DNA of 5,244 nt from a bacterium. GTDB taxonomy: Bacteria > RBG-13-66-14. Positions 1-5,244 of this stretch are shown in pieces. The stretch is taken from positions 1 through 5,244 of the forward strand of contig DATKYS010000117.1 in the NCBI GenBank assembly GCA_035528375.1, given 5' to 3'. A model generated the notes under the pieces. It ran no database searches, was not told the DNA's origin, and worked only from the letters and a program-made list of their open reading frames with translations. Within the stretch, counting starts at the first letter, position 1. Each line of letters starts with the position of its first letter. A program made the position numbers and the translations under genes.

Positions 1-66
1 TGGGGGGAGGGCCGGGGTGGGGGGTGTTCTCCCCCTCTCCCCGTGGGAGAGGGTCGGGGTGAGGGC
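1..66. repeat. GC-rich bipartite palindromic repeat, copy 1 (left end cut by the window)
   Basis: This is a G/C-homopolymer element in two parts. Part A (1-26) matches 737-761 of copy 2 almost base for base, with one single-base indel and a couple of substitutions. Part B holds a perfect 9-bp inverted repeat, CCCTCTCCC (33-41) and GGGAGAGGG (45-53), with a CGT loop, followed by a CGGGGTGAGGG tail (55-65). The left arm of part A is missing because the window starts inside the element. Read as protein, it gives a peptide containing SPWERVGVRA, which is typical of translated intergenic repeats rather than real protein. It ends about 23 bases before the first gene's start codon. Confidence 0.8.
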
Positions 67-88: not shown

Positions 89-718
89 ATGCGTACACTG
101 GTAATTCTGCTGGCTTTGCTGGCGGTCGCCGGGCTGGCCGAGCAGCCCGCCATCGCCATCGTGGACTTCGAGGCGGTGAACTGCGACGAGGGCATCGCCA
201 AGGCGGTGGGCGAGATCATGCGCACCGAAATCATCGCCACCGGCCGCTTTCGGGTCATCGAGCGGGCGCAACTCGCCAAAATCATAGAGGAGCATTCCTT
301 CCAGTTGTCGGGGATGGTGGACGCGAGCACCATTGCAGAGTTCGGCAAGCTGGTGGGGGCGGACTACGTGGCGGTGGGGAGTGTGAGCCGCCTGGCGGGC
401 ACCTACACCGTGGCGGTGCGCTACATTGACGTGGAGACGGCGGAGGCGGCGCTGGGGCGGACGGAGACGGCCGACGGCGAGGGGATGCTGCCAGACGTGT
501 GCCGCAGGCTGGCCGCGGCGCTTACCGGCCTGCCGTACAGCGGGACCTCGGGCGGCGGCTACACATCGGGCACCTCCGACGCGGGCCGCATCGCCTTTTC
601 CTCCTTGCGCGACGGAAGCTTTGAAATCTCCGTGATGGACGCCGACGGGCGCAACCAGACCAAGTTGACCAGCAACGATAACCACGACTGGTCTCCCGCC
701 TGGTGCCCGGTGGAGTAG
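89..718 (+). CDS. Exported CsgG-like domain protein with a single C-terminal TolB/PD40 blade
   Basis: This is a 209-residue secreted protein. Residues 1-17 form a signal peptide (MRTLVILLALLAVAGLA, probable cleavage before Glu18). Residues about 20-148 match the CsgG/LpoB-like fold seen in envelope proteins: a strand AIAIVDF, then GRFRVIERAQL, then the hallmark LVGADYVAVGSVSR, then VAVRYIDVETAEA. A Ser/Gly/Thr-rich linker follows (151-166). Residues 167-209 match one WD40-like PD40 blade of TolB-type propellers (RIAFSSLRDG, VMDADGRNQTKLT, DWSPAW). The protein stops right after SPAW, where family members usually continue SPDG into further blades, so the propeller looks truncated. A single blade cannot close a propeller. 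There is no lipobox cysteine, so it is probably periplasmic and not a lipoprotein. The start at 89 is preferred because the extension back to 17 only translates the repeat. The link to the metabolic genes downstream is not evident. The exact function is unknown. Confidence 0.8.
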   Translation: MRTLVILLALLAVAGLAEQPAIAIVDFEAVNCDEGIAKAVGEIMRTEIIATGRFRVIERAQLAKIIEEHSFQLSGMVDASTIAEFGKLVGADYVAVGSVSRLAGTYTVAVRYIDVETAEAALGRTETADGEGMLPDVCRRLAAALTGLPYSGTSGGGYTSGTSDAGRIAFSSLRDGSFEISVMDADGRNQTKLTSNDNHDWSPAWCPVE

Positions 719-807: not shown

Positions 808-1341
808 ATGGCTAAGGACGAGCGCATCGGAACGGTTCAGGTCTACACCGGCGACGGCAAGGGTAAAACCACCGCCGCGCTGGGACAGGCGCTCCGGGCG
901 TGGGGCCACGGGCGCAGAATCCTGGTCATCCAATTCATGAAGGGCCGCATCAACTACGGCGAACTCGAGGCCGCCGAAAGGCTCGACGGCTTCGACATCG
1001 TCCAGGCCGGCCGGGAGACCTTCGTCTCCAAGGAACACCCGGACCCCGAGGACGTGCGTCTGGCCCGCGAGGGCTGGGCGCTGCTCCGGGAGCGGGTGGC
1101 CTCCGGCGCCTACGACATGATCGTCGCCGACGAGCTCAACGTGGCGGTGGATTACGGCCTGGTTGCGCTGGAAGAGGTGCTGGAAATGATGCGTTCCAAA
1201 CCGCCGGAGCTGGAGCTGGTCATCACCGGCCGCTACGCCCGCCCGGAGGTCATCGTCCTCGCCGACCTGGTCTCCGAGGTTTTGGAAATAAAGCACCCCT
1301 ATCAGGCCGGGATGGACGCCCGGGAGGGCGTCGAGTACTGA
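808..1341 (+). CDS. cobO: CobA/CobO/BtuR-type corrinoid adenosyltransferase
   Basis: This 177-residue cytosolic enzyme transfers the 5'-deoxyadenosyl group of ATP to cob(I)alamin or cobinamide, giving adenosylcobalamin. The family's modified P-loop GDGKGKTT is at residues 15-22. The conserved VIQFMKG strand (40-46), the Walker-B-like MIVADELNVAVDYGL (104-118), VITGR (138-142) and the C-terminal HPYQAGMDAREGVEY (163-177) are all present and in order. It is a little shorter than enterobacterial BtuR because it lacks the N-terminal extension. The ATG at 808 is chosen because the protein family begins here and the open frame upstream to 703 only translates the repeat. No good Shine-Dalgarno sits before it: the nearest purine run ends at 791, inside the repeat. 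Its stop overlaps the MeaB start (TGATG), so the two are probably translationally coupled. Its role here is presumably to supply cofactor to the mutase encoded last in the cluster. Confidence 0.93.
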   Translation: MAKDERIGTVQVYTGDGKGKTTAALGQALRAWGHGRRILVIQFMKGRINYGELEAAERLDGFDIVQAGRETFVSKEHPDPEDVRLAREGWALLRERVASGAYDMIVADELNVAVDYGLVALEEVLEMMRSKPPELELVITGRYARPEVIVLADLVSEVLEIKHPYQAGMDAREGVEY

Positions 1342-2321
1342 TGCCGCGAGAGATGGACCTCCAGGAGCTGCTGGAAAGGTTTTCCGCCGGGCAGGACGCG
1401 GCCCTGGCCCGGACCATCTCGGTCATCGAGGACGAGCGCGACGGCTACGAGAGGCTGCTCCACGCGCTGTACCCCCTCTCCCGGTACCGGATGCGTCTGG
1501 GAGTCACCGGCCCCCCCGGCGCCGGCAAGTCAACGCTGGTCGGCCGGCTGGCCGCCAGAATCGCCCGGGGCGGCGAGACGGTGGGCATCATCGCCGTGGA
1601 CCCCACCAGCCCGTTCACCGGCGGCGCCCTCCTGGGGGACCGGATACGCATGGACGACGTCGGCAACATACCCGGCGTCTTCATCCGCTCCATGGGCACC
1701 CGGGGGTCCCTGGGCGGCCTCTCCCGATCCACGCGGGAGGTCGCCATGGCCATGGACGCCTTCGGCAAGGACCGGATAATCATCGAGACGGTGGGGGTGG
1801 GGCAGTCGGAGCTGGACATCGCCGGCGCCGCCGACACCACCGTCGTGGTCCTGGTCCCGGAGTCGGGCGACGGCGTCCAGGCGATGAAGGCGGGGCTCCT
1901 GGAAATCGCCGACGTCATCGTCATCAACAAGGCGGACCGCGAGGGGGCCAAGAGGATTCTCCGTGAAATCTCCGCCATGCTGGAGCTCAAGCCCGCCGGC
2001 GTGGACGACTGGCGCGTGCCCGTGCTGGAGACCGTCGCCCGGGACGACGTCGGCGTGGAGGAGGTCCTGCGCGCCGTGGACGACCACCGGCACCACATGG
2101 AGTCCAGCGGCCTGGCCGAGGAGCGCCGCCGCAACCGCGCCCACGGGGAGCTCCGTGAAATACTCGAACACGAGATACTGGAGCAGGTCCTGGGCTCCGA
2201 CGGGTTCGAAAAAAACCTCGACGACGCCGTCGAGCGCATCATGACCAGCCGCTCCACCCCCTACCACGAGGCGGAGCAGATAATCGCGAGATTGAATGTA
2301 GATCGGCTGAACCTGAACTGA
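1341..2321 (+). CDS. meaB: MeaB/MMAA-family GTPase, chaperone of a B12-dependent acyl-CoA mutase
   Basis: This 326-residue P-loop GTPase belongs to the SIMIBI family related to human MMAA and bacterial MeaB. These proteins gate cofactor loading and protect adenosylcobalamin-dependent mutases from inactivation. The N-terminal helical arm (about 5-50) is followed by Walker A GPPGAGKS (57-64), the family block VDPTSPFTGGALLGDRIRM (86-104), VFIRSMGTRGSLGGLS (113-128), the G3-like IIETVGVGQSE (147-157) and base-specificity motif NKAD (196-199). The C-terminal dimerisation arm contains WRVPVLETVA and the usual charged helices. The length is normal for the family. Older databases call such proteins LAO/AO transport kinase ArgK, which is not supported by context. 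The first ATG at 1341 shares one base with the cobO stop; a second ATG at 1353 is possible. The purine run GGGAGGG at 1322-1328 is a distant ribosome-site candidate. It sits two genes upstream of the mutase it probably serves. Confidence 0.95.
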   Translation: MPREMDLQELLERFSAGQDAALARTISVIEDERDGYERLLHALYPLSRYRMRLGVTGPPGAGKSTLVGRLAARIARGGETVGIIAVDPTSPFTGGALLGDRIRMDDVGNIPGVFIRSMGTRGSLGGLSRSTREVAMAMDAFGKDRIIIETVGVGQSELDIAGAADTTVVVLVPESGDGVQAMKAGLLEIADVIVINKADREGAKRILREISAMLELKPAGVDDWRVPVLETVARDDVGVEEVLRAVDDHRHHMESSGLAEERRRNRAHGELREILEHEILEQVLGSDGFEKNLDDAVERIMTSRSTPYHEAEQIIARLNVDRLNLN

Positions 2322-2346: not shown

Positions 2347-3507
2347 ATGCTCTACAACTGGGTTCCGGAGCAGCAGGAGGTACGGGACAGGGTAAAGGCG
2401 TTCTGCGAGGAGCACGTGGTTCCCTTTTCGCAAGCCTGGGACCGCCGGCCCCCAGAGTTCCCCGAGGAGATTTTCCAGAAAATGGCGAAGGAAGGCTTCG
2501 TCGGCTTCCCCAGCTCCAAGGAGTACGGCGGGCGGGGCGAGTCCAAAATCCGCTACGCCACCCTGATCGAGGAGATGAGCAAGTACGACGGCGCCGTTGG
2601 CATCGTGATGGCCGTGGCGGTCCTGGCCTCCTACCCCATCGAGAAGTACGGCACCGAGGAGCAGAAGCGGAAGTACCTTCCACCGATGGCACGGGGCGAG
2701 GTCAAAGGCGCCTTTTCCCTCACCGAGCCCGAGGCCGGCTCCGACGCCGCCAACCAACAGACGCGCGCGGTGGATAAAGGTGATCACTACCTGGTCAACG
2801 GTGAGAAGATCTTCACCCAATCGGGCAACGTGGCGGATGTATTCGTATTGATCTGCCGGATCATGGAGAGCGAAGACCAGCCGCTGGAAAAAGGCAAGGT
2901 CAGTGCTCTGATCTTCGATGATATAAACGATCCTGGTTTCACCGCCGAGATGATCGAGCACAAGATGGGTATCCGGACGGCCACCACCGGTCATCTCTGG
3001 TTCAAGGACGTGAAAATCCCCAAGGAAAACCTGCTGGGCCCGGTGGGCAAGGGCTTCCGCATAGCCTTGAGCACACTGGACTCGGCCCGTATCGGCGTGG
3101 CGGCCCAGGCCTTAGGCATTGCCCAGCGCGCCTTCGATGAATCGGTGGCCTACGCCAAGAAGCGGGTCCAGTTCGGCAAGCCCATCGGCATGTTCCAGGC
3201 GATTCAGTGGATGGTCGCGGACATGGCCACCCGCATAGACGCAGCGCGTCTGTTGACCTACCGCGCCGCTCAGCTTGAGGACCAGGGAGATGTGAGGTAC
3301 TCCCGCGAGGCCGCCATGGCCAAGCTATTCGCCTCGGAGACCGCCACCTTCTGCGCCGACTGCGCCATGCAGATCCACGGAGGATACGGCTACTGTGGCG
3401 AATTCTCCGACATCGAGCACATCTACCGCGACGCCCGCATCACGCGCATCTACGAGGGAACCAGCGAGGTCCAACGTATGGTCATCGGCTTATCATACCT
3501 GCGGTGA
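2347..3507 (+). CDS. Acyl-CoA dehydrogenase, short-chain (butyryl-CoA dehydrogenase-like)
   Basis: This 386-residue FAD flavoprotein is expected to introduce the alpha-beta double bond into a short acyl-CoA and to pass electrons to electron-transfer flavoprotein in the cytosol. Order of domains: N-terminal helical (about 5-117), middle beta (about 118-215) and C-terminal helical (about 225-386). Signatures visible are [14 protein letters not shown] (122-135), RVQFGKPI (273-280), QIHGGYGY (342-349) and [11 protein letters not shown] near the end, whose Glu370 is the catalytic base in the short/medium-chain subfamily. The stretch [16 protein letters not shown] resembles butyryl-CoA dehydrogenases. 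The isovaleryl-type and glutaryl-type arrangements do not fit. An oddity is that the flavin-contacting W-x-T of MCAD reads Phe156-Thr-Gln158. With an isobutyryl-type mutase next to it, butyryl-CoA (or isobutyryl-CoA) is the favoured substrate; this is inference. No ETF genes are in the window. Confidence 0.92.
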
Positions 3508-3551: not shown

Positions 3552-5216
3552 ATGGGGGTAAAAGAGGAAACCCGCCGCGGGGACGAGACTGCGGAGTGGA
3601 AGGAAAGAATCGCCGGGCAGCCCGAGCGCGACGTCCTCTTCGAGACGGTCAGCGGTCGGCCCATCAAGCCCATGTACACCCCCGACGACCTGGGCGACTT
3701 CGATTACGCCGAGAAGCTGGGCGTCCCCGGGAAGCCGCCCTACACCCGGGGCGTGCAGGACAACATGTACCGGGGGCGGCTCTGGACCATGCGCCAGTTC
3801 TCCGGCTTCGGCTCCGCCGAGGACACCAACGCCCGGTACAAGTATCTCCTCGGGCAGGGGCAGACCGGCCTCTCCGTCGCCTTCGACCTGCCCACCATCA
3901 TGGGCTACGACTCGGACCACACCCGAGCCGAGGGGGAGGTCGGCCGCTGCGGCGTGGCCATCAGCTCCCTGGCCGACATGGAAGTCCTCTTCGACGGCAT
4001 CGCCCTGGACAAGGTCTCGACCTCGATGACCATCAACGCCCCGGCCTCGCTCCTTTTGGCCTACTACATCGTGGTTGGCGAAAAGCAGGGTGTGGACTCC
4101 AAGGTCCTGCGCGGCACCATTCAGAACGACATCCTCAAGGAGTACATCGCCCAGAAGACATGGATCTTCCCGCCCGAGCCGTCCATGCGGCTGATTACCG
4201 ACGTCTTCGCCTTCTGCGCCGACCATGTCCCCAAGTGGAACACCATCTCCATCTCGGGGTATCACATCCGCGAGGCGGGCTCCACGGCGGTGCAGGAGCT
4301 GGCGTTCACCCTGGCTGACGGCTTCGCGTACGTGGAGGCGGGGATAGCGGTCGGTCTGGACGTGGACGTGTTCGCGCCGCGGCTGTCGCTCTTCTTCAAC
4401 GCCCACCTGGACTTCTTCGAGGAGATAGCCAAGTACCGGGCGGCGCGCCGCATCTGGGCCCGACACATGCGCGAGAAGTACCACGCCAAGGACCCCCGCT
4501 CCTGGCTCATGCGCTTCCACACCCAGACCGCCGGGTGCAGCCTCACCGCCCAGCAGCCCGAGAACAACATCGTCCGCACCGCCCTGGAGGCCCTGGCCGG
4601 CGTCCTCGGCGGAACGCAGTCCCTCCACACCAACTCCATGGACGAGACCCTGGCCCTGCCCTCGGAAAAGGCCGTCACCATCGCCCTGCGCACCCAGCAG
4701 ATAATCGCCGAGGAGTCCGGGGTGGCCAACACCATTGACCCCCTGGCCGGGAGCTACTTCGTCGAGGCGCTCACCGACGAGATGGAGCGGGAGACAGAGG
4801 AGTATTTTGCGAAAATCGAGGAGCTGGGCGGCGTGCTCAAGGCCATTGACCTCGGCTTCTTCCAGCAGGAAATCGCCGACGCCGCCTTCGAGTTCCAGCG
4901 CAAAATCGAGAAGAAGCAGCGGACGGTCATCGGGGTCAACAAGCACGTCATCCCCGACGAAGAGATCGCCATAGACATCCTGAAGATAGACCCCGAGGTG
5001 GACCGGATTCAGCGGGAGCGGCTGGGCCGCGTCCGGTCGGAGCGCAACCCTGATGAGGTCGAGAAGGCGCTGGATGGATTACGCCGGGCGGCGCGGGACG
5101 GCTCGAACACCATGCCCCACTTCTTGAATTGCGCGCGGGTCTACGCCACCCTGGGCGAGACCCTGGGCGTGTTGCGTGAGGAGTTCGGCGAGTACAAGGA
5201 GCCGCCGATATTCTAG
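3552..5216 (+). CDS. icmA: B12-dependent acyl-CoA mutase large subunit, isobutyryl-CoA mutase-like
   Basis: This is a 554-residue catalytic large subunit of an adenosylcobalamin-dependent mutase with a TIM-barrel substrate domain. It has a radical carbon-skeleton mechanism and acts in the cytosol. Family motifs are abundant: [11 protein letters not shown] (77-87), [10 protein letters not shown] (106-115), STSMT (156-160), [15 protein letters not shown] (188-202), [11 protein letters not shown] (233-243), FAPRLS (274-279), [15 protein letters not shown] (from 325) and [13 protein letters not shown] (353-365). Counterparts of the Propionibacterium methylmalonyl-CoA mutase residues Arg87, Gln197, His244, Arg283 and Ser285 are kept as Arg81, Gln191, His238, Arg277 and Ser279. 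Tyr89 and Arg207 are replaced by Phe83 and Gln201, the pair of isobutyryl-CoA mutase, so methylmalonyl-CoA is unlikely to be the substrate. The probable reaction is isobutyryl-CoA to n-butyryl-CoA. The C-terminal cobalamin-binding domain (DxHxxG) is absent, as in two-subunit enzymes. The partner small subunit is not in the window. The generic label methylmalonyl-CoA mutase is the likely database name. Confidence 0.9.
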
Positions 5217-5218
5217 CC

Positions 5219-5244
5219 CCCTCCCCCCTCTGGGGGGAGGGTAG
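5219..5244. repeat. GC-rich palindromic repeat, copy 3 (cut by the window end), possible hairpin terminator
   Basis: The element begins two bases after the mutase stop codon. A perfect 10-bp inverted repeat, CCCTCCCCCC (5219-5228) and GGGGGGAGGG (5232-5241), surrounds a TCT loop. The 22 bases at 5220-5241 are identical to 726-747 of copy 2, so this is the start of part A; the rest lies outside the window. The stem is strong enough to stop or protect a transcript, but no T-tract is seen in what is visible. Confidence 0.8.

Follow-up and report, generated by a model that had tools for sequence, protein, structure and literature searches.

Which acyl-CoA is rearranged by the B12-dependent mutase encoded near the end of contig DATKYS010000117.1 (C117)? 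This contig, one of 144 in the 2.63-Mb draft genome of a bacterium of the lineage RBG-13-66-14, constitutes the entire window analysed here (5,244 nucleotides). A sequence-only reading had assigned the gene to the isobutyryl-CoA mutase type rather than to methylmalonyl-CoA mutase (MCM), based on a Phe/Gln (F/Q) pair in place of Tyr/Arg (Y/R) in the active site. A phylogeny built without these two positions and a topology test both support that assignment. We conclude that the gene most likely codes for the large subunit, which binds the substrate, of an isobutyryl-CoA mutase dependent on adenosylcobalamin, with a likely catabolic role (isobutyryl-CoA to butyryl-CoA). The gene and the codons on which the argument turns are as follows.

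3552..5216, + strand: B12-dependent acyl-CoA mutase large subunit of the F/Q (isobutyryl-CoA mutase) type, 554 amino acids (translation, models, alignment, tree)
3798..3800, + strand: codon of Phe83, equivalent to MCM Tyr89 (structure alignment)
3879..3881, + strand: codon of Ala110, Asp in 2-hydroxyisobutyryl-CoA mutases, which counts against that enzyme (alignment)
4152..4154, + strand: codon of Gln201, equivalent to MCM Arg207 (structure alignment)
4155..4163, + strand: codons of Lys202 and Trp204 with Thr203 between them, columns leaning F/Q versus Y/R (K versus G, W versus Y; alignment)

In MCM, Tyr89 and Arg207 read the carboxylate of the substrate, and the tie of this residue pair to the substrate is established for MCM, the isobutyryl-CoA mutase IcmA and the 2-hydroxyisobutyryl-CoA mutase HcmA. 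Both substitutions proposed earlier, Phe83 and Gln201, are present in the translation, and the proposed constant offset of six residues to the Propionibacterium freudenreichii MCM holds, with structure alignments being gapless around both sites. The anchors of that alignment, Gln197, His244 and Arg283 (P. freudenreichii numbering), are all kept in the window mutase, as is Tyr243. The pairs ascribed to the reference enzymes were also recovered: Streptomyces orthologs carry F/Q, and 3 sequences of 2-hydroxyisobutyryl-CoA mutase (4r3u and those of Methylibium and Xanthobacter) carry Ile/Gln. With Phe83 and Gln201 in place of the carboxylate-holding Tyr and Arg, the pocket would accept an uncharged methyl or alkyl end. 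In the predicted structure, the predicted local distance difference test (pLDDT) score is <50 at residues 35–85 and 199–203, around the key sites, and no structural argument was drawn from it.

Comparison of 71 related large subunits (34 F/Q and 37 Y/R, with IcmF-type enzymes left out) revealed that Phe occurs with Gln in 34/34 F/Q sequences and Tyr with Arg in 37/37 Y/R sequences, and that exactly 2 alignment columns, MCM positions 89 and 207, separate the two sets without exception. Four extra columns (MCM positions 208, 210, 371, and 379) lean the same way, and the window mutase has the F/Q-type residue at all 6 discriminating columns; the 4 extra columns were not preselected, although the groups themselves are defined by the 2 key sites. 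The ortholog from a genome of the same genus, which is 95% identical, has the identical pair. Given the perfect co-occurrence, the 2 sole separating columns and the same-genus ortholog, the Phe/Gln pair is neither a product of chance nor a sequencing error.

A further test of the assignment came from a tree of 84 proteins (532 columns) from which the 2 diagnostic columns had been taken out. The window mutase is placed, with full support, among the orthologs from its own phylum, which belong to a set of 24 F/Q sequences together with the isobutyryl-CoA mutases of Streptomyces and other actinobacteria (support 86/99). A single change between F/Q and Y/R suffices over the tree; a second F/Q group of 9 sequences and a haloarchaeal F/Q sequence do not firmly join the first group. 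A constrained tree that unites the window clade with the Y/R mutases is 58 log units worse, and the approximately unbiased (AU) test rejects it (p = 0.034). Thus, the window mutase falls with Streptomyces IcmA and not inside a verified MCM clade, the placement that the sequence-only reading had named as speaking against it, a result of modest strength. The Streptomyces IcmA query used in the searches served as bait only, whereas the tree contains genomic Streptomyces sequences; a plasmid search with this bait yielded no Streptomyces IcmA.

The gene neighbourhood bears on the direction and role of the reaction. Upstream of the mutase, the window contains the following genes.

89-718, + strand: CsgG/TolB_N-like protein (profile models)
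808..1341, + strand: CobA/BtuR cob(I)alamin adenosyltransferase, the maker of adenosylcobalamin (profile models, synteny)
1341..2321, + strand: MeaB GTPase, chaperone for delivery of B12 to the mutase (score above the TIGR00750 cut-off, synteny)
2347..3507, + strand: short-chain acyl-CoA dehydrogenase, butyryl-CoA dehydrogenase-like, directly upstream of the mutase (models, solved structures, synteny)

The genes from CobA through the mutase are closely spaced on a single strand; the mutase starts with ATG, preceded by AAGGGGAG, and the contig stops 28 bases past its end. The solved structures nearest to the acyl-CoA dehydrogenase are those of butyryl-CoA and short-chain enzymes, and its adjacency to the F/Q mutase is conserved in the phylum. 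The genome encodes one further large subunit, on contig C7, with the Tyr/Arg pair and adjoining genes for methylmalonyl-CoA epimerase, a crotonase and a thiolase; with this separate Y/R mutase beside the epimerase, the MCM role is already filled in the genome. One stand-alone small B12 subunit (130 amino acids, with DGHDRG matching the DxHxxG motif) was found on contig C32, followed downstream by carboxyltransferase, biotin carboxylase and biotin carrier genes; the biotin carrier gene is cut by the end of C32, and C7 starts within a biotin carrier gene. In 5 related genomes of the phylum (G007, G008, G010, G011, and G012), these pieces are continuous in the order (CobA–MeaB)–acyl-CoA dehydrogenase–F/Q mutase–small subunit–PccB–AccC–biotin carrier protein–Y/R mutase–epimerase–crotonase–thiolase, followed by hydroxybutyryl-CoA dehydrogenase in the stretches long enough to include it; G012 has no CobA or MeaB at the cluster site. 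A same-genus genome is continuous from the acyl-CoA dehydrogenase to the Y/R mutase, with undetermined bases within the small subunit gene. The window genome's own Y/R mutase (L036, 17422-19017) has Tyr for the usual Asn at MCM position 236, a feature common to the same-genus genomes G002 and G003.

Taken together, these genes suggest a route in which CobA would make the cofactor and MeaB would load and protect it. Valine would be converted to isobutyryl-CoA via a ferredoxin oxidoreductase, and the window mutase would isomerise the product to butyryl-CoA. Butyryl-CoA may then be oxidised to 2 acetyl-CoA by the acyl-CoA dehydrogenase encoded next to the mutase together with three other cluster enzymes (crotonase, hydroxybutyryl-CoA dehydrogenase and thiolase), while the carboxylase, the epimerase and the Y/R mutase, also from this cluster, would take care of propionyl-CoA. 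Several 2-oxoacid:ferredoxin oxidoreductases are encoded in the window's genome, and the beta subunit of one of them scores 410.9 bits against the 3-methyl-2-oxobutanoate dehydrogenase model (cut-off 405 bits), making it a candidate 2-ketoisovalerate:ferredoxin oxidoreductase. For the E1 component of the branched-chain dehydrogenase (BCKDH), only weak partial matches, none convincing, were found in this genome. In the 5 genomes searched, no methylmalonate-semialdehyde dehydrogenase (MMSDH) scored above the model cut-off and no full-length hydroxyisobutyryl-CoA hydrolase (HIBCH) was found, the partial matches to the latter lying mostly in frames of the size of ordinary crotonases. We infer the substrate, the direction and the use of the one small subunit from residues, phylogeny, gene context, and gene presence or absence.

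Several observations weigh against the assignment to isobutyryl-CoA mutase. The support of 86/99 for the clade with IcmA is only moderate, the deep forks among F/Q sequences are not firm, and the AU value is just below 0.05. The small subunit lies on another contig (C32), so its partnership with the window mutase rests on synteny. Overall identity, at 60.5% to the MCM of Ilyobacter, the highest to an enzyme with a clear MCM context, versus 57.3% to Streptomyces IcmA, slightly favours an MCM; we dropped it as a guide to function. This value, the MCM name carried by the database models and the presence of Phe at position 89 in one P. freudenreichii MCM chain (5req, unlike 1req) would suit an MCM with unusual residues. 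We take 5req to be the Y89F mutant of that enzyme; Phe alone is therefore no proof of changed function, and it is the loss of Arg207 that carries the argument. With Arg207 lost too, the tree placement and AU test as described, and another mutase, of the Y/R type, encoded in this genome and cluster, an MCM is highly improbable. A 2-hydroxyisobutyryl-CoA mutase is hardly credible either: 4r3u has the highest score among the PDB matches and shares the Gln at 207, but the window mutase has Phe rather than Ile at 89, Ala rather than Asp at 116 and Ser rather than Ala at 285, and the 3 enzymes of that type form a separate starred clade.

The substrate itself is read from 2 residues, and the F/Q pair indicates only the absence of carboxylate recognition. 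IcmF, another F/Q enzyme, also acts on isovaleryl-CoA and pivalyl-CoA (PMC10481361), and MCM positions 236, 283, and 361, which are K, G, and N in Streptomyces IcmA, are N, R, and Q in the window mutase. The main substrate might accordingly be another uncharged one (isovaleryl-CoA, pivalyl-CoA or a longer branched or linear acyl-CoA), with isobutyryl-CoA being secondary. Nevertheless, the cluster covers all steps from butyryl-CoA to acetyl-CoA, which best fits isobutyryl-CoA, and it showed no gene specific to pivalate or to the leucine branch, rendering such a preference improbable. A variant compatible with an isobutyryl-CoA mutase is that it works in reverse in vivo, from butyryl-CoA to isobutyryl-CoA, yielding primers for branched fatty acids or isobutyrate for excretion. 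The reaction is reversible, and a role of the Streptomyces enzyme in providing building blocks for polyketides has been discussed (PMC2847961). However, the surrounding genes belong to oxidative beta-oxidation and to the carboxylation of propionyl-CoA, and the genome offers a route that leads from valine to isobutyryl-CoA; we consider this direction possible but rather unlikely.

Isobutyryl-CoA mutases are already known enzymes; of greater interest is that, in a conserved cluster, 2 mutases appear to share one B12 subunit. Wherever a searched genome combines the two large subunits with an intact gene for the small one, its cluster encodes one short B12 protein of this type, and one of these genomes (G022) gives just a single B12-binding match overall. 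With one small B12 protein per two-mutase cluster, one subunit for 2 large subunits is the simplest reading. We therefore lean towards a model, drawn from gene content and order, in which the small subunit would serve both the isobutyryl-CoA and the methylmalonyl-CoA large subunits as an interchangeable cofactor part, with the cluster handling the butyryl-CoA and propionyl-CoA ends of branched-chain amino acid breakdown. If true, such sharing would provide a simple test of mutual recognition between the cofactor and substrate halves.

Comparison with known mutases places these features in context. Like Streptomyces IcmA/IcmB, with which it groups in the tree, the window mutase has the Phe/Gln pair and a short large subunit without a B12 domain of its own, with 57% identity over 534 residues; it differs in lacking the short insert of IcmA near residue 430 (PIGPMTSG region) and in having an MCM and a propionyl-CoA carboxylase encoded in its cluster. 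Isomerisation of isobutyrate to butyrate, feeding beta-oxidation, has been reported for Syntrophothermus lipocalidus, and its mutase cluster Slip_0757-0760 also includes a CobA adenosyltransferase and MeaB (PMC5017805), a likeness seen at the level of gene make-up, whereas the present cluster adds the carboxylase, the second mutase and the epimerase. IcmF (its ortholog picked out by the match to 4xc6) shares the Phe/Gln pair and needs a MeaB-like G-protein, but is one fused chain of mutase, GTPase and B12 domain with 36% identity to the window mutase. The latter was ruled out as an IcmF, MeaB and the mutase being separate genes; consistently, its score against the IcmF model is 346 versus 1500 bits. 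HcmA (4r3u) has Gln at 207 and a short large subunit (50% identity) but combines Ile/Gln with Asp at MCM position 116, as opposed to Phe/Gln with Ala. MCM shares the fold family (PF01642, TIGR00641) and the conserved His244, Gln197 and Tyr243, but not the residue pair. An ethylmalonyl-CoA mutase was ruled out as well, since the Ruegeria enzyme, recognised by its place near crotonyl-CoA carboxylase/reductase (ccrA), keeps Tyr/Arg.

The sequence-only reading had further expected automatic annotation to name an MCM and to predict the wrong pathway. The first part stands: the top model is 'methylmalonyl-CoA mutase N-terminal domain' in NCBIfam and 'MM_CoA_mutase' in Pfam, while the cut-off of the NCBIfam MCM equivalog is missed (655.5 versus 876 bits), which has little weight because that model describes a longer fused form. 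The second part needs a qualification, since the methylmalonyl pathway itself is present (separate Y/R mutase, epimerase and carboxylase in the cluster); an MCM label would therefore miss the isobutyrate branch rather than invent an absent pathway. Such mislabelling has already been noted for IcmF (PMC7764203). Across a wide sample, 2 residues split carboxylated from non-carboxylated acyl-CoA mutases, both of which database models name MCM, and checking these 2 positions would set annotations of uncultured lineages right and uncover an isobutyrate/valine branch that is otherwise missed.

Among the other features of the locus, a GC-rich intergenic repeat (CCTCCCCCCTCTGGGGGGAGGG...) occurs at window positions 1-65, 726-791 and 5220-5244, between genes and at the contig end, with the copies at 726 and 5220 being 96% identical over 25 bases; it may be the cause of assembly breaks. 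TolB/CsgG-like proteins with repeated MDADGxNxTxLT motifs are encoded both in the window (89-718), adjoining CobA, and on contig C32 (L037, 67-1972), upstream of the small mutase subunit. Elsewhere, a 2.5-Mb draft genome (G045) encodes around 10 or more distinct mutase large subunits (L069-L077), several with active-site residues unlike those of characterised enzymes: Val/Gly (L074 twice, L075, and L076), Ile/Gly (L072), Leu/Asn (L073), Leu/Leu (L077), and Tyr/Arg but with Tyr243 replaced (L070 and L071). These mutases form separate clades in the tree. G045 proteins are joined there by a Sphingobium plasmid mutase (L167, 2902-4569) with Leu/Asn, whose gene neighbours encode a small B12 subunit, MeaB, a thiolase and AMP-binding ligases.
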